DNA of 64,000 nucleotides. Origin: Elusimicrobiota bacterium. GTDB lineage: Bacteria > CG03 > SLGR01 > PWQF01. A program made the translations under genes and the position numbers. Below, piece after piece: positions 13,924-30,265 of the stretch (the first letter of the stretch is position 1; every line of letters starts with the position of its first letter). The stretch spans positions 4,938-68,937 of the forward strand of contig PWOI01000130.1 of NCBI GenBank assembly GCA_003557485.1, given 5' to 3'. The notes beneath the pieces were generated by a model that had not been told where the DNA came from, ran no database searches, and worked only from the letters and a program-made list of their open reading frames with translations.

Positions 13924-15993
13924 TCAGCCGATTTCGCTTAATGAGAATCCGCAGGAAGATTTGGCCGCGTACTTCTTAAAGAGATCTCTTATATGATCAT
14001 CCATTGTGAAATAAAACACCTGCCATCCTGATTCGGAAAGTGCAACAGCCCTGTCAACCATTTTTTCCCGACGTTTCCAGTCGGAATACTGAAAGGCGTC
14101 GTCCAGTATAAAAAACATCCTGTTTTTTCCTAAAAGCCGGGCTGCCATTCCTATACGCAGGCCAAGGAAAATCTGCTCGCGGGCGCCGTCACTGACTTCG
14201 TCAAGGCCGTACTCTGCGTAACCGTCCGACAGGTACAGCTTGTTCTCTTTTAGTTTAAAAGACTTATATTTCGCAGTAAACTTCTCAACGGGTTCTTTCA
14301 GTTCCTGATTTTCAAGCGCCATACGAACCTTTTCTTCTTCTCTTCCAGACATTTCATCAATAACACTTGCAAGGCAGGCGGTTCCTATTATTCCGGCTGT
14401 TGTCTGTCTGTATTCCTGCTGCACAATGCGGCGAGTTTGAAGAAGACTGTCTATAAGTTTTTCATCATCAACGGCATCAGAACCTGTAATACGGACTATT
14501 CGTGTTCTAATATCATCCAACGGTTCCCTTAGTTTCTGAAGTATTTCCTGCTGTTTCTGAAGTTCTTCAATGGTTTTTTCTTCTTTTTTCTCATCATAAT
14601 CGGAGGGTTCTTCACTTTTTATAAAGTCCTCTTCTTTTACTTTAAGTGACGCCAGCTCGCTGCTGCACTGGTTAATTTTTTTCTCTGTTTCCTTCCTTGT
14701 ATTTTCCTGCTGTTTTATTGTTTCTTCCCAGTCTTTTTCATCCGGAAGAGGCTTTGTAATATCAAGGAGCCACTTTTCTATTTTCGAGCCAGCATCCGTT
14801 ATCCTATCCTCAATATTCAAAAGGTTTTCCCGGACAGCTTCCAGTTTATGACTGATTTCTGTCAGTTGAGAAATTTTACTTTTGATTGTTGAAAAATCCT
14901 TTAATTCTTCTGCAAAATGCTCCCGGTAAGTATCTTTTATATTATCAACCTCCCGGTCGGAACTTATGCTGCGCGGTTTCATGAGCAGAACTGCTGCCGC
15001 TGAAGCAAGCATCGCAGCCAGCGCTGCCGGAGGATAAATAAAGACAAGAAGCGCAGATGCAGCTATTAAGGTTATTATGAGGCCACGGTAAAAACCGGGA
15101 GAGGCACCATCGCTTATTATAGATTCGTATGTTTCACGGGCTTCTTCAAGCCAGGGGAGATATTTAATCTGTTCTTCTTTGTATTTTATTTCAACTCTTT
15201 TTTCAGATGCTTCACGCTTAAGGTTTTTCCTGGCGGAAACTTCCAGGGAAAGCTTTTTGAGGTGTTCCTCTCCCGGCATATCCTGCAGGCGTTTTCGGAG
15301 CTGTTCTATTGTACTGCTTAACTTAAACGCATAGCGCCTTCTTGATTCCTCGTGCTGTTTTTTTTCCTTTTCAAGTTTTTCTATATACCTCTTACAGTCA
15401 ACAAGAGGCCCGAGACTGTACCTGCTGTTTAAATCCTCTTTAAGCTTGTCTATCTGTTGCAGCTTTTCGGCAGCGTTTTCCCTGCTTTTAACAATACCAA
15501 GTCCCCCGGGTATATTAATGGCGTTTTCTTCAATTACTGCCTTTCTGAGAGTTTTCCCTATTTTTCCGTCTATTTCCGAAAGAATCTTTTTCCCGGAAAG
15601 ATAGGCTTTCAATACTTCCATGTGATTGTCAGCACTTATTTCTTTTGTTGATATCTCGCTGTGGGCACCTTTTATTATCATAAGTTTGTCTATCTCAGCA
15701 GGGAGGCCCGGGAGACCCTCCTGAAGGTAGTCGTTAAGGCTTTCAGGCGAAGACGGAGTAAAAGCCGTTCCTTTTTTATCCGCCCCTTCTATAATTATCT
15801 TCCCTTCCGGTGAAATTTCCCTTAAATCCCAGTTTTTCCCGAAAAGACAGCTGATTATGAATTCCACAAGGAAGGTCTTGCCTGATTCATTTTTTCCGTA
15901 AACAAGATTAAGGTCTTCCGCTTTCAGGGAGAACCTGTCAACGGGTCCGAGTTTTCTTACATTTATCTCTTTTATTCTTATGCTTGAACTCAT
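13924..15993 (-). CDS. SbcC/YhaN-like ATPase with a membrane hairpin in the coiled coil
   Basis: 689 residues. Walker A is GKNESGKT at 33-40; the C-terminus has a signature-like VSDGAREQ and Walker B FILDDAFQ. The long middle is coiled coil, interrupted by two hydrophobic helices at about 304-338. This fits the YhaN branch of the SbcC/Rad50 family rather than classical SbcC, which is over 1000 residues with a zinc hook; no CxxC hook is seen. It probably works with the SbcD-like nuclease whose gene overlaps it by 4 bases, processing DNA ends at the membrane. Confidence 0.8.
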   Translation of the reverse strand: MSSSIRIKEINVRKLGPVDRFSLKAEDLNLVYGKNESGKTFLVEFIISCLFGKNWDLREISPEGKIIIEGADKKGTAFTPSSPESLNDYLQEGLPGLPAEIDKLMIIKGAHSEISTKEISADNHMEVLKAYLSGKKILSEIDGKIGKTLRKAVIEENAINIPGGLGIVKSRENAAEKLQQIDKLKEDLNSRYSLGPLVDCKRYIEKLEKEKKQHEESRRRYAFKLSSTIEQLRKRLQDMPGEEHLKKLSLEVSARKNLKREASEKRVEIKYKEEQIKYLPWLEEARETYESIISDGASPGFYRGLIITLIAASALLVFIYPPAALAAMLASAAAVLLMKPRSISSDREVDNIKDTYREHFAEELKDFSTIKSKISQLTEISHKLEAVRENLLNIEDRITDAGSKIEKWLLDITKPLPDEKDWEETIKQQENTRKETEKKINQCSSELASLKVKEEDFIKSEEPSDYDEKKEEKTIEELQKQQEILQKLREPLDDIRTRIVRITGSDAVDDEKLIDSLLQTRRIVQQEYRQTTAGIIGTACLASVIDEMSGREEEKVRMALENQELKEPVEKFTAKYKSFKLKENKLYLSDGYAEYGLDEVSDGAREQIFLGLRIGMAARLLGKNRMFFILDDAFQYSDWKRREKMVDRAVALSESGWQVFYFTMDDHIRDLFKKYAAKSSCGFSLSEIG

Positions 15994-17051
15994 TTTTCGT
16001 ATATCATCTTCAGTGACTCTTTTATCACATCCTCTTTTGAAGGTGACTCAGACTGAGAAAAATCCCACGGCAGTTCTTTATCTATATATTCCAGGCTCTT
16101 CAGCGCAAGTTCCATTCTTTCCGGATCCTCGGAAGCGGATATAAGCCGGGATATATCAGGTTCTTTATCGTAAAAGCAGTATCCGCTGAATTCGTCTTTC
16201 AAAGCAAGCCTTGCCTTTTCCCTGTCAGAAGTATAGCCGGAAGCTTTTATTCTTATAAGGCTTTTTTTCTTTTCCTTATCGGAAAGGCACCACTCTTCTT
16301 TCACTTTGCGAGCCTGATCCTTTATGGACTTAATCTCATTCTTAAGCGGGAGAATTAATATGTCAGCGCTGAAATAAAGCTGCTCCGTTTCAACCGGCAG
16401 GCGGCTTACCTCGCCTCCGGAGGTATCAAGAATAATAAAGCTCCTTCGGCCTGTCTCATTTATGTGCAGGGGAAATGGGGAACCGGGATAAAAAACCCTT
16501 TCGGAATCCATAGGTTTGTGAATATGGCCCAGTATAACTTTAAGGGGGTTAAAACGGGTTATGTCGGCTCTTGTAAGCGGCATATAAGTCCCTTCCTCAA
16601 GCGGATTAATTTCGGTCCGCCCGCCCAGCCAGTCTCCATGACCGGTTATACAGAAAGGTTTTTCCTTATCAAGTTGCGGCCGGGCCTGTTCTATACTTTC
16701 TCCCATTGATTTTCCGGCAGCGTACGGTATAAACATAATCTGCATCCCGCTGAACTCTTTTACTGAAGGAGTGCAATAGACATTTACATTGTCCCCAAGA
16801 ATTTTTCCCGTATCAAGTATTGGGTCGTGATTCCCCGGAATTATATGGAAGTTTATGGCTGGTTCTGAAATGCAGAGCCTTTCAAAATCGTTGGAGGGAG
16901 AACCTTCACTGTCAAAAACATCCCCGGCCAGAACAAGTTCGGTGATTTTTTCCTTTTTAATATTAGCGAGTATATTTTCAAAAGCCCTGAAGCGACCGGG
17001 TGCTTCACGGGAACTTTTTAAATGGAGGTCCGCTGTGAAAGCTATTTTCAT
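15990..17051 (-). CDS. SbcD/YhaO-like exonuclease (Mre11-type phosphoesterase)
   Basis: 353 residues. Metal ligands of the calcineurin-type fold are all visible: FTADLHLKS, LAGDVFDSEG, IPGNHDP, ITGHGDW and ILGHIHKP. The family contains SbcD, Mre11 and YhaO, manganese-dependent nucleases that act with an SMC-like ATPase. The next gene, overlapping by 4 bases, encodes that ATPase. The ATG at 17051 lies six bases after a TAAAAT box and has no ribosome site, so the mRNA is probably leaderless. Confidence 0.85.
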   Translation of the reverse strand: MKIAFTADLHLKSSREAPGRFRAFENILANIKKEKITELVLAGDVFDSEGSPSNDFERLCISEPAINFHIIPGNHDPILDTGKILGDNVNVYCTPSVKEFSGMQIMFIPYAAGKSMGESIEQARPQLDKEKPFCITGHGDWLGGRTEINPLEEGTYMPLTRADITRFNPLKVILGHIHKPMDSERVFYPGSPFPLHINETGRRSFIILDTSGGEVSRLPVETEQLYFSADILILPLKNEIKSIKDQARKVKEEWCLSDKEKKKSLIRIKASGYTSDREKARLALKDEFSGYCFYDKEPDISRLISASEDPERMELALKSLEYIDKELPWDFSQSESPSKEDVIKESLKMIYEK

Positions 17052-17113: not shown

Positions 17114-17142
17114 TTGACGAAAAGTAAGGCAGAAGTTATAAT
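17114..17142 (+). promoter_or_regulatory. Sigma70-type promoter of the OB-fold/TctA-like/YdjM-like cassette
   Basis: TTGACG (17114-17119), exactly 17 bases, TATAAT (17137-17142), about 37 bases before the AGGAG-led ATG at 17186. It is divergent from the SbcDC-like promoter about 30 bases away. Confidence 0.8.
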
Positions 17143-17185
17143 TTTTATAGTACGCTCAGGCAAAGCTAAACAGGAGTATAAAAAA

Positions 17186-18442
17186 ATGACTCAGGAAAAC
17201 ATTAACCCTCCCAAAGACAAGTCCGGTGAAATAAAGGGCTCCGGATCTTACGAGTCCAACTGCCAGGTCTGCGGATATTATGTAGGGGCATCTTCAGTGT
17301 GCCACCGGTGCGGCGCCGGAACTAAGACAAGAACATCCATAAGAACGGTAAGGCTTGTTGCTCTTATCGGCTCCATAATCGGAGTAATTCTTCTCTGGGT
17401 GGCCGCATTTATTAAACAGCCTGATTTTATAAATATAGGTGATATCACGCCTACCATGAATAATGCGCTGGTAGTAATTGAAGGAAGTGTTGTAGAATCA
17501 ATACAGGATACCGAAACAAATACCTTCCGTATGACTGTATCAGACAATACCGGCAATATACGCATAAACGCCTTCAACCATCTTGAAAGTTTCCGCAGAC
17601 ATTTTGACGGCCGCCTTCCTTCTGTCGGTGATACTGTCAGCGTAACGGGTGCCCTCAATATTACCCAGGCCTGGGGAGCGGCTATGTTTCTCAGTATACC
17701 GGAAAGAGTGCGCGTCATTGAAAAATTTGAAATGAAGGAAATCCCGATAGGAGATATAACAGTTGGCCATTCGGGACAGCTGTTCCGCATTTCCGCTGAA
17801 GTGGCTGATTATGAACCGGGTCAAACCCGCGCCGGAGATCCGATGCACAGGATAACATTCCGCGACAATACGGGAAGAATATCTATGGTCCTCTGGGACA
17901 ACCAGTTTCAAGCTCTTTCCGAAGAAGCCCGGAAAGCAATCTCAAGGCCTGGAAGCAGGCTTAAACTTGCTGTCCGAGGAAGCGCTTTCCGGGACGAACC
18001 CCAGATTGAATTAATTGATCCGGAATCCCCGGATATGGCAGAGGTAGTAAGCATATCCGATACTGAGCTGCCGGCTCCAAGTCGCGTCTCTCCCCTCGAC
18101 CGGCTTAACTCAATGAAAATAGGCGACATAACAACCGCCCACGCGGGCAGAACTTTTAAGATAACGGTGACTGTAGAAGAGTACGAACTGGGACAGACCC
18201 GGGCCGGGGACCCGATGCACAGGGTAACGCTGGGAGATGAAACGGATATTATATCAATGGTTATATGGGCAACCCAGTTTGACTCCCTGCCCGGCAATGC
18301 CCGGGGAGCTTTTACAACCAAGGGCAGCAAGCTCACAATAGCTGTAGAGGGAGGTGAATTCAGGGGGCAGCCTCAGGTCTCTCTTATGGACGCTTCTGAT
18401 CCGGAAACGATAAAAGTCCTGAGTGTAGGAGAGGGACGCTGA
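17186..18442 (+). CDS. Zinc ribbon - membrane helix - triple OB-fold protein
   Basis: 418 residues from the ATG at 17186, chosen because AGGAG lies 9 bases upstream and a longer TTG frame would start inside the promoter. Four cysteines (26, 29, 39, 42) form a zinc ribbon; one membrane helix spans about 56-75; then three repeats each begin IGDIT (about residues 84, 188 and 309). The repeats read as OB folds; 2 and 3 share GQTRAGDPMHR. Arginines and lysines before the helix predict the zinc ribbon inside and the OB repeats outside the cytoplasm. Ligand unknown. First gene of a tight three-gene cassette. Confidence 0.72.
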   Translation: MTQENINPPKDKSGEIKGSGSYESNCQVCGYYVGASSVCHRCGAGTKTRTSIRTVRLVALIGSIIGVILLWVAAFIKQPDFINIGDITPTMNNALVVIEGSVVESIQDTETNTFRMTVSDNTGNIRINAFNHLESFRRHFDGRLPSVGDTVSVTGALNITQAWGAAMFLSIPERVRVIEKFEMKEIPIGDITVGHSGQLFRISAEVADYEPGQTRAGDPMHRITFRDNTGRISMVLWDNQFQALSEEARKAISRPGSRLKLAVRGSAFRDEPQIELIDPESPDMAEVVSISDTELPAPSRVSPLDRLNSMKIGDITTAHAGRTFKITVTVEEYELGQTRAGDPMHRVTLGDETDIISMVIWATQFDSLPGNARGAFTTKGSKLTIAVEGGEFRGQPQVSLMDASDPETIKVLSVGEGR

Positions 18443-18443
18443 A

Positions 18444-19865
18444 ATGATCTATTATTATATACCGGTTATTACATTCTATGTACTGCTGGGAACTCTGGCC
18501 GGGGCAATACTCTGTTTTATTCCCGCACTTCATATATATAACGTAGCGGGAATCGCGATAGTTGCATGGCTGACCGCCCGGCACCTGGTTCCTTATTACG
18601 CAGTAGCTCCGTTTTTCATGTCTCTTGTCGTAGCGTTTTCCTTTATGAATACCATACCGATGACTTTTTTCAATACTGTAGACGAATCAGCCGGAGCAAC
18701 TCTGCTGCCTTCAAATGCAATGGTAATGAGGGGAAGGGGAACAGAAGCGGCCATAATGAGCGGACTGGGAACTTTAATGGGAGCTTTTCTTCTAATCGCC
18801 CTTACTCCTTTCTTTTTTTATATATGGCCTTACCTCGCTGTTATTTTCGGAGGACACCTTCACTGGATACTGGGCCTTGTGATAGTACACTATATAATGA
18901 GCGAATGGCCCAAAGGCGCGGGACGCGGCAAGACGCCTTTCAAAAGATGGGCGGAAGCCTGCAGGAACTGCTTTGCCGGAATGCTGACCTTTTTTCTTGC
19001 TGCGGTTTTCGGGCTTATATTTTTAACCAAACCTATTCTTCCCCCTGAACTTGCTTTTCAGAATATTATGCCGGTTTTTGTCGGTTTTTTTGCTGTACCT
19101 TCAATAATCCAGTCTCTTCTTTCAAAGTTTAAGCCCCCACAACAGTACAAACCAAAAAGCATAAACGCAGACTGGAAGGATTTTTCTTACGGACTTCTGC
19201 CCGGTTTTGTAGGAGGAATGCTTGCGGCTTACCTTCCGGCTGTAACAGCCGGCATAGGAGCAATGCTGGCCGGACATACAACCAATCACCGCAACCTGGA
19301 CAGGGCAAGGTTCCGGGCGCCGCTGGAAGAAGGTGAAATAATACACCTTGAAACCCCCGAAATGTATTACAGGCAGGAGCGCAACTTCTTAATTGCAGGA
19401 GGAGTCGGAAAAATACTTTATTATGTCGGCGCTTTTCTTCTGCTGTTTACCATAACAGAGCTTACTCCCTACGGAACCGGCCGGGGCGGCCTTGCTTTCA
19501 TACTAAGGCCGGTCTTTTCAGCCGAGCCCGGTGACTTCTTTGTGATGGCATCTACAATAGTATTCAGCGGCTCCATTGCCTTCCTGATGCTAATTAAAGG
19601 TTCTCGCATAGCAGCTGAAATATCCCCTAAAATAAATATTACGGTTATGTATTCGCTGGTTTTGATAGCACTTTCTGCAATAGTTTATTTCATTGCAGGA
19701 GGATGGATAGGAATAGCGATTATGGCTGCCACAACCTGTATAGGAATGATACCGGTTTTCTACGGCTGCCGCAGGAGCCACTGTATGGCGGTGCTTCTGG
19801 TTCCTATAGCTCTCAATATGGCCGGTTACGGCGAAAGCATAGCCCGGCTGCTGGGACTGGTATAA
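18444..19865 (+). CDS. TctA-like membrane protein (COG1784/DUF112 type)
   Basis: 473 residues with about ten membrane helices. The N-terminal GTLAGAILCFIPALHIYNV and the central GLLPGFVGGMLAAYLPAV are two inverted-repeat-like glycine/proline blocks typical of the TctA superfamily; the overall form matches the COG1784 'TctA-like' proteins best known in archaea. True TctA permeases work with TctB and the binding protein TctC; neither is here, so classic tricarboxylate uptake is unlikely. It starts one base after the OB-fold gene ends and ends 3 bases before the next gene, so the three products probably work together. Confidence 0.7.
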   Translation: MIYYYIPVITFYVLLGTLAGAILCFIPALHIYNVAGIAIVAWLTARHLVPYYAVAPFFMSLVVAFSFMNTIPMTFFNTVDESAGATLLPSNAMVMRGRGTEAAIMSGLGTLMGAFLLIALTPFFFYIWPYLAVIFGGHLHWILGLVIVHYIMSEWPKGAGRGKTPFKRWAEACRNCFAGMLTFFLAAVFGLIFLTKPILPPELAFQNIMPVFVGFFAVPSIIQSLLSKFKPPQQYKPKSINADWKDFSYGLLPGFVGGMLAAYLPAVTAGIGAMLAGHTTNHRNLDRARFRAPLEEGEIIHLETPEMYYRQERNFLIAGGVGKILYYVGAFLLLFTITELTPYGTGRGGLAFILRPVFSAEPGDFFVMASTIVFSGSIAFLMLIKGSRIAAEISPKINITVMYSLVLIALSAIVYFIAGGWIGIAIMAATTCIGMIPVFYGCRRSHCMAVLLVPIALNMAGYGESIARLLGLV

Positions 19866-19868
19866 GCC

Positions 19869-21023
19869 GTGAAGGGGTTAACCCATTTTGTTTCCGGAGT
19901 TGCGGCGGCAACATTTATTCCGCAGGTTGTCAGGATGTCTGCAGCGGGAAGAATGGATGTCACCGGCGCGGCGTCAAGTTTTATAATAGTCCTGGCGGGA
20001 ATGTACGGCATAATGCCCGACACACTTGATTTTAAAGTCGGTCAATTTTTTGACAAACCAGACATAATTGTCGACCCCGACCCTCTTGATCCCGACCCAA
20101 AGGAGATGGCCCAAAAGTTTGCAGAAGCCGTAAGCCGTTCGGCGCGTGAAGGACGTATGATAAAAATACAGTATATGCCTATACAGCTAGGGGCCAACCG
20201 CTGGAGACAGTATCTCATCATATTCGGTGAAAAAGAAGTCAGCGTTCAGATTAACGAGGTTGTCAGCACTTCACAGATACCATACCAGGGAACTGCGCCT
20301 GACCCGGAAAAACGTTCCGCCACAGTTCCTCTAAGTCACAGGATAAAACCAACATCCTGTGATACCGACACCCTTAACAGGCTGGTCAGGAAAACCAGAA
20401 GATTTCTCAAGGGGGGAGAAAAAGAAAAAACTACCGTAAAGCCCTCTACTATAGATATCCTTTCCGGCACCACTTTCGGACTAAAAATGGAGTCAGACGG
20501 TGATATTTATTTTGACTGGCTTCCGTGGCACCGGACCTGGAGCCACAGTTATATACTGGGTCTGATGCTTGCCGCGCCCTGGGCGCTGGCGGCCTACCTT
20601 TTTAAACTTGATATGTGGTGGATGTACGGAGTTGTGGCATTCCTGGGTTTTGCAGTGCACATTACAGAGGATATGACCGGCCACATAGGGGGATCGCTTC
20701 TATGGCCCTTTTTAAAACCCAGGACGGAAGGTTTTGAAATGTTTAAGGCATCGGACCCCAGAACCAATTTCAGCATTATATACGCAGGTTTCATTCTTAT
20801 AGTTTTCAACCTCGACAGGTTCACTACAAACCTACTTACCGGGGGACCTGAATCGATATGGAGCTGGTGGTCCTTCCTCCTGGTTTTTCTTATTCTTCCT
20901 CTTGCCGTTTATTTTAAAATAGCAGCAAGAATATTAAAAAGGATAAAAAAAAGGGAAGCCGGACTCAAATTTACCCGCGAGGAAGAAGAACCTGACGGGA
21001 CAGGGGATCCTGTCATAGACTGA
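19869..21023 (+). CDS. DUF457/YdjM-like membrane protein with large insertion
   Basis: 384 residues, GTG start. The N-terminal THFVSGVAAATF and PDTLDF and the later WHRTWSHSY and HITEDMTGH are the histidine/aspartate blocks of the DUF457 (YdjM-like) inner-membrane 'metal-dependent hydrolase' family. A hydrophilic insertion of roughly 150 residues (about 65-215) separates them, unusual for this family, which is normally about 200 residues. The C-terminus adds two helices and a charged tail. The gene sits 3 bases behind the TctA-like gene. Function is unproven for the whole family. Confidence 0.7.
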   Translation: MKGLTHFVSGVAAATFIPQVVRMSAAGRMDVTGAASSFIIVLAGMYGIMPDTLDFKVGQFFDKPDIIVDPDPLDPDPKEMAQKFAEAVSRSAREGRMIKIQYMPIQLGANRWRQYLIIFGEKEVSVQINEVVSTSQIPYQGTAPDPEKRSATVPLSHRIKPTSCDTDTLNRLVRKTRRFLKGGEKEKTTVKPSTIDILSGTTFGLKMESDGDIYFDWLPWHRTWSHSYILGLMLAAPWALAAYLFKLDMWWMYGVVAFLGFAVHITEDMTGHIGGSLLWPFLKPRTEGFEMFKASDPRTNFSIIYAGFILIVFNLDRFTTNLLTGGPESIWSWWSFLLVFLILPLAVYFKIAARILKRIKKREAGLKFTREEEEPDGTGDPVID

Positions 21024-21040: not shown

Positions 21041-21481
21041 TTACCGGGCCAGATTCTGCCGGCCTATATAGTTGCCGTGCAGGTTGCAGTGTGAAACAAC
21101 AGCCAGTTCTCCTTCTGAAGTCTTGAGATGAAGGGATACTGCCGGATTCATATGTGCCGGATCAAATTTAATCCGGGATATGAACTCATTGTCCAGATAC
21201 AGATCAACAAACATAATCCAGTGTTTGTCCGGCTCCATAGGATGGAGTGTGCTTCCCACTTTTATATGGGCGTCAACACAGCCTTCAGCCATAGAACAAT
21301 CACCGCTTAAGGTAATCTCCGGGACATGTTTCTCTTTTAGTCCGGATTCGTCAGCATCCGTTTTTAAGGCGTCTTCCTGTTCTTCAAACTGGCTTGCCGG
21401 CGCGCCGCACTGTGGGCACTTTTCCGGAGGAGCATCTTTGAGCTCAACATATCCGCACATTTTGCATACAAATTTTTTCAT
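21041..21481 (-). CDS. Superoxide reductase with N-terminal rubredoxin-like domain
   Basis: 146 residues. Residues 1-30 form a rubrerythrin-type rubredoxin knuckle pair (Cys6, 9, 22, 25). From about 49 a neelaredoxin-type superoxide reductase follows: EKHVPEI (His52), LHPMEPDKHW (His80, His87) and HCNLHG (Cys132, His135), the square-pyramidal iron ligands. It reduces superoxide to peroxide without making oxygen. Classic desulfoferrodoxins carry a desulforedoxin domain instead, so this fusion brings its own electron donor. It follows rubrerythrin by 17 bases, which would remove the peroxide formed. Confidence 0.92.
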   Translation of the reverse strand: MKKFVCKMCGYVELKDAPPEKCPQCGAPASQFEEQEDALKTDADESGLKEKHVPEITLSGDCSMAEGCVDAHIKVGSTLHPMEPDKHWIMFVDLYLDNEFISRIKFDPAHMNPAVSLHLKTSEGELAVVSHCNLHGNYIGRQNLAR

Positions 21482-21498
21482 TTTGTTTCTCCTAATTT

Positions 21499-22074
21499 TT
21501 ACCAGTTTTCGCAGAGCGCTTCAAAATGGGCCTGGGGATGTGCGCAAGCGGGACATTTCTGGACAGCTTCATCTCCTTCGTGAACATATCCGCAGTTAAG
21601 GCATCTCCATGTTAAGCTCTGGTCTTTTTTGAAAACTTTTCCGTTTTCAATATTTGCCGCAAGCGCCCTGTATCGTTTTTCGTGCTGTTTTTCGGCAACG
21701 GCTATTGATTCCATCGCAGACGCTATTTCTTCAAAACCCTCTTCCCTTGCTGTGTCTGCAAAAGAGGGGTACATTTCAGTCCACTCATGATTTTCTCCAT
21801 CTGCAGCGGCCTTAAGATTTTCAACGGTGCTTTTAATTTCACCTGCAGGAAATCCGGCCGTTATTTCAACTTCTCCGCCTTTGAGAAACTTGAAGAGCCT
21901 TTTGGCGTGTTCTCTCTCCTGGTTGGCAGTCTCCTCAAAAATTTCAGACATCTGCCTGTATCCTTCCTTTCTAGCTACAGATGAATAATAGGTGTAGCGG
22001 TTACGCGCCTGTGACTCACCTGAGAATGCTTTCAGCAGGTTTTTTTCCGTTTCGGTTCCTTTTAATGAACTCAT
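21499..22074 (-). CDS. rbr: Rubrerythrin
   Basis: 191 residues. Ferritin-like diiron domain with [30 protein letters not shown] and EKQHEKRY, followed by a C-terminal rubredoxin domain (CLNCGYV...CPACAHP). Rubrerythrin is an NADH-linked peroxidase in the cytoplasm of anaerobes. AGGAGG lies upstream of the ATG. Gene order perR - rbr - superoxide reductase is a classic oxidative-stress unit. Confidence 0.96.
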
Positions 22075-22124
22075 TTCAGTCCTCCTTCTTTCTTTTTAAC
22101 TTCTTCCGTCATAACCTTAAGTTC

Positions 22125-22547
22125 CTATTTTTCACTTTCTCTGCAATTGCGGCACTGCCCCCTGAAATAACCCTGAATACTGTCTATGGCATGCCCTTCT
22201 ATATCCTTTTTTCTGAAGAAAGATGGCATTATATCCAGATCATAAACTATGCCGCATATATCACATACAAAATGAAAATGAGGATCAGGGTTTGAATCAA
22301 AACCGGCCAATCCCTCAGAAACCGTTAACTTCATAGCAAGTCCTTTTTCGGCAAATAGGTTAAGTGTATTATATACTGATGTTTTTGAAAGAACCGGAAG
22401 TTCTTCCTTTAAATCTCTGTATACAGTATCCACCCCGGGATGATCAGTATTATTTTCAAGGTACTCAAGGATCTTAAGCCTTATGAGAGTTGGGGATATG
22501 TCCCTGTTTTTAAGTTTTTCTTTAAATCTTTCCATTTTTGTATTCAT
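22125..22547 (-). CDS. perR: Fur/PerR-family metalloregulator
   Basis: 140 residues. Winged-helix N-terminus (SPTLIRLKILEYLENN, HPGVDTVYRDL, SKTSVYNTLNLF) and a metal-binding C-terminus with HFHFVCDICG and CRNCRE (structural zinc site). Context with rubrerythrin and superoxide reductase favours the peroxide sensor PerR over Fur. The ATG at 22547 lies eight bases after the -10 box with no ribosome site, so the mRNA would be leaderless; a second ATG at 22535 also lacks one. A palindrome across the -10 box suggests autoregulation. Confidence 0.85.
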   Translation of the reverse strand: MNTKMERFKEKLKNRDISPTLIRLKILEYLENNTDHPGVDTVYRDLKEELPVLSKTSVYNTLNLFAEKGLAMKLTVSEGLAGFDSNPDPHFHFVCDICGIVYDLDIMPSFFRKKDIEGHAIDSIQGYFRGQCRNCRESEK

Positions 22548-26251: not shown

Positions 26252-29200
26252 ATGGCTAAAAAAAGAAAACTACTTTTTCTATGCGTTCTCTTGCTTGTTT
26301 TAATACTGCTGCCGGCAATTTTATTTAGAGCTGCCGCTCCTTTTGTAAAGGAAGTATTTATAGAAGAGACCCGGAAGGCTACCGGACTGCAGCTTGATAT
26401 TGAAACACTGAGGCTGCAGTTCCCCGGCCTTATACAGGCTGAAGGAGTTAACCTGTCAGACAGAAACGGAGCTTCTCTTATTTCTGCAGGGACTATAAGA
26501 GCCAGTATATCACTTCCGGCTCTCGCCAGAAAGAATATCACGGTGACCCGCCTTTCTATTGACTCTCTTTTCCTGCATGATTCTCTTGCGGATTCTTTAA
26601 CTGCCCCTGATAATGAAAAAGATGCTTCCAAAGCAGGCCCCTTTATTTCTATAAACAATATTTCCCTGACAAATTCTGCCTTTTTTATAAGCGGCCGTAA
26701 AACGGAAATAGAAATAGGAAGGGGTAACTTGACTTACAACCCTGACAGCAATATGGATATTTTTCTGGATTCCGTATCTCTGTCAGGGGCCGGGAGTAAA
26801 GCCGAAGTTCAGACCCTTAAAGCCTCACTGAATATGTCCGGAAACTTTCCCGGAATCAGGAACCTTCTGGTTGAAACTGAAGGGCTCAAGGCTTCAGGAA
26901 GTCTTTACTCTGAAACGGAAAAAGGTGAAATGAACGGTTATTTTGAAGCCGGTGGACGCCTTGAAACTCTGAGGGACCTGGCTATTTCCGTTGCGCATAT
27001 TAATCTGCCGGAACTTAAAGGCAACTTCAAACTGCTTTCAGATATATCCGGGACCCTTCAGTTGCCATATGCAACCGCTGAGCTCTACTTTGAAGAATTT
27101 TCGTCTGGAGGCAGGCTGTTTTCTGCACTTGAAATTAATGCGTTAGCGGATGGGTCTCATATAAATCTTGAGAAGGCGGAAATCACCGGAATCCATGGAG
27201 AAAAAGCCTTTCTTTCCGGGAAATATGATCTTTATTCTCATTTGGCAGATAATTTTCAACTAAAAATATATCAAGCTCCGGCAGACGGTTCGTTCAGGAT
27301 CCCGGGTTCTCCCGAAGAAATTGAGGGGGGATTAATAAACGCCTCTCTTGTTTTTTCCGGACCGGCAGGAGAACCGCAGCTTTGGGATTCGGCAGGAAAT
27401 TTCAGCTTAACCGCCGCCCGTTTAAGCGGAAAGGAGCTTCCCGGAGTAACCGGAGATTTCCTGTTCAGGGAATCAGCCGGAAACCTGAAAATTAAATCTG
27501 ATTACGCCTTTATCGACGCCCGGGTCAAATACGGCAATCCTGTATTTGAAGGCGGTTATAACCTTAAAGTTGAGGAAATAGAAAGCCTTCTCATTTACGC
27601 GGGTATTGAAGATATTTCCGGAAGTTTGGATATTTCCGGCAGTTTTAATTACTCCCGGGGAGACTTCCGGGCCACCTCCGAAATAGAAAAGGCGCAACTC
27701 CTTTACAGTTCCATTCCCCTTAATATTGAAAGCGGGAAAATATTCCTGGACAGAAGCGGTGTTTCATTCAGAGATATTACCGGTAGGGGAAAATTTATCA
27801 TTGAGGACTCCCCTTTTCTATCAGAGACCGAACCGCGGCTTGGCGGCTATATGTCATATGTCTTTACGGCCCATGGCAGCACCGATGACCCGAAAGCAGA
27901 ATTTGAAATAATACTGGCGGACCCTCTCTTTGATACTTTTAATGCAGACGAATTTTACTTCTCCGGTAGTTACGGAAACGCATTACTTGAAATTTCCTCA
28001 TTTTACTTGAAAAAGGGGCGTTTTCTTGTACTCTCTGAAAGTTCCTTTCACCCCATCTCTATGAAAGGAAATATGGAAATGCTTACATTTAGAACGCCTA
28101 TTGCGGATTTACCCGAAGGCCAAGAACTTTTTGATAAAGCTATCAGAGATTTTGAAAGAGCCGGAAAATCTTCATTTTCTTTTGATTTACAACGTGAAGA
28201 GGATATTTTTCTACATTATTCAGAAGAATCATTTGATATTGAAACCGGCGCCGAGTTATTAGAACTACCCTATCCGCTGGAGGGCAAGTTAAGTGCAGAT
28301 ATTCTTTTCAGGGGCAGCGCCTACGACCCTGAAATAAAGGCCACTGTCTCCATTGAAGACTCAACCATCAACGGAACAGCTATAACAAACGCTTTTATTG
28401 ACGCACAACTACGGGAAGGAATTGTATCGGTAAAAGAATTTAATCTTGCAGGCCCGCGGTCGGGAAAAGTGCAGGGAAAATTTTCATTTAAGGCCCGGGA
28501 TATTGCAGGCGGTGTTTTTTTCCCGGATATAAACCATTACTCCGAGGGGACACTTTTAATAGAACAGCTGGATGCTACTCTTCTGAATTTTTTTACCAGG
28601 GAAGATGCTGTTGCTTCCGGTTCAGTCTCTGCAACCCTTGAGTGGCGCGGCCTGCCGGTAAGCCCGGCAGCGGAAGGTTTTATACGACTTGAAGATTTCA
28701 CCGTAATAGCCGGAGACGAAAAAATTCCGGATATCAGCCTGTATGCTTATTTCAGTGAGCGCAAGCTTTTACTTGAAAATTTTTCAGCTACTCTAAATAA
28801 TAATCCGCTTACCGCGGCCGGTACTGTGGAATACCCCTCAAGAGACCGTTATTTATGGGACCTTGCCATTAAAATCGCAGGAGAAGAGAGAGCTCTTCTT
28901 ACCGGTACAATAGAAAATAGCCGAATAGAGGCTCTATGCAGAATAATGTCACTTAATCTTGCAGATTTTTCCGGGTATCTTCCCGTTGAAAAACCGGAAG
29001 GCAGAGTGAGTGCGGATATAAAGATTGAAGGTTTTCAGGAGTCTCCCGAAATTTACGGTAATCTTAGGGCCACCAGGCTGGCCGGAAATATAGAGGCCCT
29101 AAAACATCCTATTTCCGGCGGCGCTGCTGACATATTATTTAACAGGAATGAAATTGAAATAAGAAGAATTTTTGCGCGCTCCGGACGAGGGGTAATAAAT

Positions 29201-30265
29201 GCCTCCGGCCGAATAACACATAAAAATGCTTCGCCCCAGAGCTCAGACATATCACTAAACGCATCCGCTCTGGAAGTAGAATTAGATAATATAGGAAATG
29301 GGATTGTAAGTCTTGCCGATCTAGGTTTCAAAGGAGAAGAAGGCCTTTTTGTTTTAAACGGGGAAGTTCATATGTCGGAGTTTTTTGTTACTGCCGACGA
29401 ACATTCAGCCGCTAGGAGAGAAGTTTCGGACGGATTCACGGAACAAATACAACTTGCCCTGGCCCTGCACACCGGCCGCAATATGTGGGTATATAACCAG
29501 GCAGGAAGAATTCGCCTTGACGGACAGCTTAGGGCGGCAGGTACTGCAGCAAGGCCTGTTCTTACGGGAAGAATAGAAACAAAAGAAGGATATGTAATGT
29601 ACCTGGACAGAAAATTCAACATAGCCGACGGATATGTTGATTTTGACGGAAGGCCTGAAAATATTCCATATATAGATGTCAGCGCCCGGACAAGGGTCAG
29701 GAGCCTGCGGCAGGTTGAAGACCGCCCTTACGATATTACTTTAAGGGCCACCGGCTATGTAAATGACATACAGATATATCTGACTTCGAGACCGCATCTG
29801 GAGTTTGCAGACATCGTTTCCCTTCTGACTTTCGGAGCAACCAGAACCCAGATGACTGAAAGCGAAAGACTGCTTACCCTTAGGGCCGAAGAACTTGCAA
29901 GCGTAAGGGTTGCCGGCTATATCTCCGCTTATGCAGGGAATATGCTTAACCTTGATGTAGTCGTTATTGATGGTAATGTATTCAGGGCAGGTTCTCCGCA
30001 CGGACCACGGATACAGGCGCAGAAAGGAATTTCAGAGAATATAGCGCTGGCATACGTAGGGAACCTCAGCCCCGAGGACAGCGCGCTGGTTGCAAGGCGG
30101 GCAGCAGGACGTACGGAAATAATCTACACCGAAGGAATAGGCCGCACCGAGCAGCAGAAACTTCAGCTGAGATACAGCCTGACTCCGTCCCTTGCAGCCG
30201 AAGCTCTCACCGATCACACCGGCCGGTCTAACATCGGGCTTAAATACAGCATATGGATACCGTGA
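26252..30265 (+). CDS. tamB: TamB-like translocation/assembly protein (AsmA-like, DUF490)
   Basis: 1337 residues, normal for TamB. An N-terminal signal anchor (about 7-28) is followed by a very long run of beta-strand repeats and a conserved C-terminal DUF490 region (GRIETKEGYVMYLDRKFNIADGYVDFDG, SRPHLEFADIVSLLTFG, GRTEIIYTEGIGRTEQQKLQLRYSLTPSL). TamB proteins bridge the periplasm and help lipid transport or barrel assembly with TamA. The tamA-like gene overlaps its end by 13 bases. The start codon follows a TATAAT box by eight bases. Confidence 0.9.
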   Translation: MAKKRKLLFLCVLLLVLILLPAILFRAAAPFVKEVFIEETRKATGLQLDIETLRLQFPGLIQAEGVNLSDRNGASLISAGTIRASISLPALARKNITVTRLSIDSLFLHDSLADSLTAPDNEKDASKAGPFISINNISLTNSAFFISGRKTEIEIGRGNLTYNPDSNMDIFLDSVSLSGAGSKAEVQTLKASLNMSGNFPGIRNLLVETEGLKASGSLYSETEKGEMNGYFEAGGRLETLRDLAISVAHINLPELKGNFKLLSDISGTLQLPYATAELYFEEFSSGGRLFSALEINALADGSHINLEKAEITGIHGEKAFLSGKYDLYSHLADNFQLKIYQAPADGSFRIPGSPEEIEGGLINASLVFSGPAGEPQLWDSAGNFSLTAARLSGKELPGVTGDFLFRESAGNLKIKSDYAFIDARVKYGNPVFEGGYNLKVEEIESLLIYAGIEDISGSLDISGSFNYSRGDFRATSEIEKAQLLYSSIPLNIESGKIFLDRSGVSFRDITGRGKFIIEDSPFLSETEPRLGGYMSYVFTAHGSTDDPKAEFEIILADPLFDTFNADEFYFSGSYGNALLEISSFYLKKGRFLVLSESSFHPISMKGNMEMLTFRTPIADLPEGQELFDKAIRDFERAGKSSFSFDLQREEDIFLHYSEESFDIETGAELLELPYPLEGKLSADILFRGSAYDPEIKATVSIEDSTINGTAITNAFIDAQLREGIVSVKEFNLAGPRSGKVQGKFSFKARDIAGGVFFPDINHYSEGTLLIEQLDATLLNFFTREDAVASGSVSATLEWRGLPVSPAAEGFIRLEDFTVIAGDEKIPDISLYAYFSERKLLLENFSATLNNNPLTAAGTVEYPSRDRYLWDLAIKIAGEERALLTGTIENSRIEALCRIMSLNLADFSGYLPVEKPEGRVSADIKIEGFQESPEIYGNLRATRLAGNIEALKHPISGGAADILFNRNEIEIRRIFARSGRGVINASGRITHKNASPQSSDISLNASALEVELDNIGNGIVSLADLGFKGEEGLFVLNGEVHMSEFFVTADEHSAARREVSDGFTEQIQLALALHTGRNMWVYNQAGRIRLDGQLRAAGTAARPVLTGRIETKEGYVMYLDRKFNIADGYVDFDGRPENIPYIDVSARTRVRSLRQVEDRPYDITLRATGYVNDIQIYLTSRPHLEFADIVSLLTFGATRTQMTESERLLTLRAEELASVRVAGYISAYAGNMLNLDVVVIDGNVFRAGSPHGPRIQAQKGISENIALAYVGNLSPEDSALVARRAAGRTEIIYTEGIGRTEQQKLQLRYSLTPSLAAEALTDHTGRSNIGLKYSIWIP

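Follow-up and report, generated by a model that had tools for sequence, protein, structure and literature searches.

Three genes lie on the plus strand of a 64,000-nucleotide stretch (hereafter the window; contig PWOI01000130.1 of assembly GCA_003557485.1, positions 4,938 to 68,937) from an Elusimicrobiota metagenome-assembled genome (MAG) of 2.07 Mb that is 87% complete. They encode, in this order, an OB-fold protein, a TctA-like protein and a YdjM-like protein, with intergenic gaps of 1 and 3 bases. The original prediction, made from the sequence alone, had presented them as a three-gene set behind one strong promoter, and this layout was confirmed. The features of the locus, all on the plus strand, are the following.

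17114..17142, plus strand: sigma-70-like promoter TTGACG-17-TATAAT (11 of 12 consensus positions; consensus match only)
17172..17176, plus strand: ribosome-binding site AGGAG, 9 bases 5' of the ATG at 17186 (read from the sequence)
17186..18442, plus strand: gene 1, OB-fold protein, 418 amino acids (PF01336, E 5.6e-12; family alignment; topology)
17261..17311, plus strand: zinc ribbon C26-x2-C29-x9-C39-x2-C42 of gene 1 (four cysteines invariant in 10 relatives)
17357..17413, plus strand: single transmembrane helix of gene 1, residues 58-76 (hydropathy and positive-inside count)
17432..17695, plus strand: OB fold 1 (residues 95-165 match PF13742 with a score under its cut-off)
17744..18043, plus strand: OB fold 2 (PF01336 match at residues 202-270)
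18116..18421, plus strand: OB fold 3, a recent duplicate of OB fold 2 (internal alignment score 281)
18444..19865, plus strand: gene 2, TctA-like (COG1784-type) polytopic membrane protein, 473 amino acids (PF01970, E 7e-33, 114 bits against a cut-off of 28.9; COG1784-type motifs)
19869..21023, plus strand: gene 3, YdjM/DUF457-like membrane protein with a putative metal site, 384 amino acids (PF04307, E 9.6e-13, 48.4 bits against a cut-off of 29)
20034..20519, plus strand: hydrophilic insertion of about 160 residues inside the YdjM fold of gene 3 (model and alignment)

Promoter-like sites numbered 10 in the scan, with 6.3 expected by chance, so that only the site at 17114-17142 is noteworthy.

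By employing the TctA protein as query against GTDB genomes, we found 18 loci, and the order OB-TctA-YdjM was seen wherever the contig was long enough. Among 337 bacterial genomes, the TctA profile (A1) matched in 20 and the profile for the insertion-bearing YdjM (A2) in 19, all 19 of which were shared (Fisher p 4e-30). The one genome with TctA only, G394, carries a divergent TctA alone, while in G387 the TctA and YdjM genes are found on two contigs, each next to a contig end, as an assembly break would give. Out of 38 non-redundant cassette-type loci, the OB gene was adjacent in 35 of the 36 assessable and the YdjM gene in 34 of 35, and these loci come from nine archaeal genomes and a wide range of bacterial lineages. 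When 36 neighborhoods were clustered by sequence, no family apart from OB, TctA and YdjM recurred beyond close relatives. TctA and YdjM distances are correlated (r 0.94), and the trees of both proteins pair the bacterial locus L171 with the archaeal locus L067, which suggests, as far as sequence comparison goes, that the cassette has moved between the domains as a unit. The three genes are one real, ancient cassette. The earlier idea of a single unit was borne out by this fixed order in distant bacteria and archaea, profile searches of the kind then proposed having found the three families together far outside close relatives.

Gene 1 is, judging by its sequence, a membrane-anchored protein in the N-in orientation, with its zinc ribbon in the cytoplasm and three OB folds outside. 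The 12 residues preceding the helix include four K/R and no D/E, and ten relatives have 2-4 K/R vs 0-2 D/E in this position; this excess of K/R ahead of the helix points to an N-terminus inside and OB domains outside. The same topology had been originally predicted from the positive residues before the helix, and both the charge counts and the three repeats agree with it. The number of OB folds varies from one to several between members of the family.

The TctA-like product of gene 2 belongs to PF01970, as does the TctA of the TctABC transporters, and differs from it in several respects. The canonical motifs PGLGP and PG..A...DGYPM are replaced by PGxHxxN-type and D[DE]..P..GRGYEA-type motifs in cassette and archaeal TctAs alike, and in a tree with ten canonical TctAs, the latter are split from the cassette and archaeal proteins at 100/100, placing the cassette TctA in a separate clade. 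Furthermore, the TctC receptor (PF03401) was found in none of the 28 genomes searched, most of which bear the cassette and which include the 87% complete MAG of the window, while controls were positive. No TctB adjoins the cassette, PF07331 not having been searched genome-wide. The earlier description of a TctA without TctB and TctC accordingly holds at the level of the genome for TctC, and for TctB only in the surroundings of the cassette. No genome was found to hold a canonical and a cassette TctA together (p 0.39), numbers that are too small to indicate exclusion, and the PLSDB plasmids gave no TctA match.

In gene 3, the C-terminal half fits the YdjM/DUF457 profile (PF04307), and the His/Asp motifs are kept among cassette members. 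Unlike other YdjM proteins, the cassette form carries a conserved insertion of about 135-260 residues, and in the 337 bacterial genomes this form occurs only where a cassette TctA is present. The insertion of gene 3 itself, predicted at about 150 hydrophilic residues, is confirmed at about 163, flanked by a DxxDF and an HR motif. Seven residues (H6, D51, D54, H221, H226, H264 and D268) are invariant in 27 bacterial and archaeal YdjM-like relatives, and the protein is likely to be a metal-dependent hydrolase on the strength of these motifs. Applying the positive-inside rule to the helices of the model, we read the His/Asp cluster and the insertion as lying on the cytoplasmic face. Sequence relatives in the PDB were found for none of the OB, TctA and YdjM families. 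A nitric oxide synthase that came up as a fold match to the YdjM model was discarded, as it covered the insertion only, with a Z under 5 and a root-mean-square deviation of about 7, and is chance-like.

The TctA profile also matched in 168 of 247 archaeal genomes, in two tiers. Tier one (E below 1e-100) consists of nine genomes in which the cassette is complete and frequently includes a second OB gene, whereas tier two holds stand-alone TctAs or two-gene OB-TctA pairs. One of the tier-one genomes, G298, encodes a 1671-residue DNA polymerase, the first 400 residues of which match PDB 1WNS over its full length at top score; we take this entry to be the KOD1 polymerase, and the genome thereby to be that of Thermococcus kodakarensis. 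It holds the complete three-gene form, with the OB gene at 1,839,210-1,842,185, the TctA gene at 1,837,882-1,839,210 and the YdjM gene at 1,836,475-1,837,872 of the chromosome, and the insertion of its YdjM contains an OB fold (PF01336, E 2.3e-6), a fusion that ties genes 1 and 3 to each other. In archaeal genome G185, the cassette's two OB genes are preceded by a gene for a 1084-residue PKD-domain protein with OB folds (L067, 955-4206).

A genetic role is published for relatives of the first two genes. Natural transformation of Methanococcus maripaludis requires both MMJJ_13020 (an OB protein with one transmembrane helix) and the TctA-like MMJJ_13030, as reported by Fonseca et al. 2023; deletion of either abolishes transformation and is complemented in trans, and the TctA homolog of Methanoculleus thermophilus is likewise essential (PMC10133366). 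By means of the published transposon positions (1,193,041/88/89 and 1,194,079), all of which fall inside two open reading frames, we located this locus in genome G332 at 1192953-1193561 and 1193565-1194758. Both reading frames were matched by the window-family profiles (TctA E 1.3e-29, OB E 1e-6), and by this measure cassette genes 1 and 2 are homologous to MMJJ_13020 and MMJJ_13030. In both systems the OB gene precedes the TctA gene by a few bases, the OB protein has one N-in helix and the TctA motifs are non-canonical. The M. maripaludis OB protein differs in having one OB fold and no N-terminal zinc ribbon, and its TctA partner is placed in a sister clade, so that we do not file the cassette as a member of the archaeal pair. 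The same OB protein (L135, 4954-5562) has a cysteine-rich C-terminus, CPYG...CSYC, possibly a second site for metal binding, which the bacterial proteins lack. In the searchable papers, COG1784 appears either as a stand-alone candidate carboxylate transporter (PMC5898192) or as half of the transformation locus (PMC10133366). The statement of the original prediction that these families have no proven biochemical role in this form is consequently out of date for OB/TctA pairs of this type, while its guess that the cassette moves a polymer fits the published part of the archaeal relatives in DNA uptake. The OB/TctA transformation pair was thus already known, and what is new is the YdjM protein with its insertion, as a third and previously unlinked component. 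None of the searchable papers was found to describe the three genes as a unit, to record such a unit in bacteria or to name YdjM as a partner; subscription-only papers lay outside the search, and priority is therefore uncertain.

Our proposal, at about even confidence, is that the three products form a membrane complex that takes up or handles nucleic acids and is related to the archaeal OB/TctA transformation pair. On the outer side of the inner membrane, the multi-OB protein, anchored N-in, would bind DNA (or RNA) as it arrives; the TctA-like protein would be the conduit or carrier in that membrane; and the YdjM-like protein could either receive the substrate or, as a metal-dependent phosphodiesterase, act on it. 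By analogy, this outline resembles the parts of ComEC, which joins an OB fold (DUF4131), a channel and a metallo-beta-lactamase nuclease (PMC12455585), here distributed over three proteins that Pfam does not assign to ComEC domains. The cassette likewise offers an OB fold, a polytopic membrane protein and a metal-hydrolase-like protein, but as separate genes and with a TctA-type membrane part, and neither PF03772 nor PF00753 matched any of the three proteins. Matches to DUF4131 were weak (MMJJ_13020 E 6.5e-4, two family members with 1.5e-3 at best, the T. kodakarensis OB protein 0.003), and none was listed for the window protein. Some neighbors are suggestive clues to uptake. The two-gene form adjoins a prepilin peptidase in the archaeal genomes G167, G207 and G123, in the first two of these also together with class III signal-peptide proteins, and the second cassette of G397 (L169, 8831-12497), a single bacterial case, adjoins a secreted double-HhH (ComEA-like) protein along with CorA-like and metallo-beta-lactamase + HhH + OB proteins.

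A more specific version of the proposal is that the cassette is a ComEC-independent DNA importer, i.e. a three-protein analog of ComEC common to archaea and bacteria, with an OB receptor, a TctA-derived conduit and a membrane metal nuclease. We put this forward only tentatively, as a possibility that has the weaker chance of being right. That the cassette replaces ComEC in bacteria was rejected, since ComEC is found in 57 of 61 relatives as well as in every cassette genome tested (below). A second ComEC-like reading frame of about 980-1000 residues, in which an insertion interrupts the match to PF03772, occurs in many relatives (G003:C214, G006:C11, G033:C47 and similar).

Several observations weigh against a role in nucleic-acid transport. 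All 16 bacterial cassette genomes that were tested carry the ComEC family (PF03772) and so have no obvious need of another DNA channel in the inner membrane, and the clustered neighborhoods show no recurrent competence neighbor at bacterial cassette loci. The window's OB protein has a net acidic ectodomain (-13), the charge in the family ranging from -23 to +17 and hence not being consistently basic. For the YdjM model, fold searches (Foldseek and a second look) gave no usable relative and no nuclease match, and the M. maripaludis locus is without a YdjM gene. Even in M. maripaludis, TctA is only a putative DNA conduit, and a 100/100 branch parts the cassette TctAs from the two-gene and solo archaeal TctAs, MMJJ_13030 included; with the cassette TctA in a clade of its own, its function may have diverged from that of the tested archaeal pair. 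The same divergence may be at hand in G077, G078, G084, G086 and G185, which carry both a cassette and a separate COG1784 TctA. Finally, the single-chain TctA model (predicted local distance difference test score, pLDDT, 84.9) resembles carriers, with YS1 (OPT) at Z 11.9 followed by NaS1/INDY/TRAP at Z 5.6-7.

This last resemblance, the TctA family assignment in Pfam and the proposal of carboxylate transport for COG1784 by Makarova et al. 2015 all speak for a secondary transporter of small solutes (a carboxylate, a metal chelate or a nucleotide), with the OB and YdjM proteins as regulators or accessory subunits. Given the replaced TctA motifs, the missing TctC, the near-obligate OB and YdjM partners and the need for the archaeal homolog in transformation (PMC10133366), we regard such a transporter as unlikely, although it survives best among the alternatives. 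Rather unlikely, too, is a system for envelope oligosaccharides or lipid-linked polymers, in which the OB protein would bind sugar, the TctA protein move a lipid carrier or polymer and the YdjM protein cut a phosphodiester or lipid. In its favor, oligosaccharides are among the possible ligands of OB folds, YdjM sits in the inner membrane and has a metal-type site, and the cassette is found in diverse bacterial and archaeal envelopes; however, the OB Pfam model is of the nucleic-acid-binding type, glycan genes do not recur beside the cassette, and it is DNA uptake that is affected by loss of the homologous archaeal pair (PMC10133366). Pili are essential for archaeal transformation (PMC10133366), and the two-gene archaeal loci adjoin pilin-processing genes, so that an accessory or retraction factor of type IV pili, the loss of which blocks transformation indirectly, has also to be weighed. 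We consider it distinctly improbable, as no pilus genes recur at cassette loci. The type IV pilus-type ATPase family, present in all 28 genomes searched, was dropped as a discriminating clue, since it also occurs in non-cassette relatives and in all 14 controls and is thus uninformative. Lastly, a DNA-repair-linked system involving the divergent SbcD-like/SbcC-like (AAA_27-type) pair at 13924-17051, a distant match below the SbcD family cut-off that the original prediction had offered as a hint, is very improbable and largely refuted, as the pair flanks the cassette only within the same genus (the window and L002/L177) and is absent from every other cassette neighborhood examined.

On the other side of the cassette, directly 3' of it and on the opposite strand, an oxygen-stress cluster with desulfoferrodoxin, rubrerythrin and a Fur-family regulator occupies positions 21041-22547, and a large TamB-like protein of 1337 residues is encoded nearby at 26252-30265. 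The MAG labels of relatives disagree, the closest being assigned to Elusimicrobia and the same-order G003 (apparently identical to G061/L003) to Sumerlaeota.

Archaea are without ComEC, and our literature search turned up just one candidate for DNA passage, the OB/TctA pair of M. maripaludis, which is now tied to a strictly conserved three-gene unit of bacteria and archaea. The complete unit sits in T. kodakarensis, which is naturally competent (PMC7936305) and has gene-deletion tools, making the question testable. If the cassette is indeed a ComEC-independent importer, it would supply part of the inner-membrane DNA importer that is missing in Thermococcales and, in cassette-bearing bacteria, a second route beside ComEC that has been exchanged between the domains. 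Bacteria outside the model organisms may, by implication, use an archaeal-like module for nucleic-acid transport.

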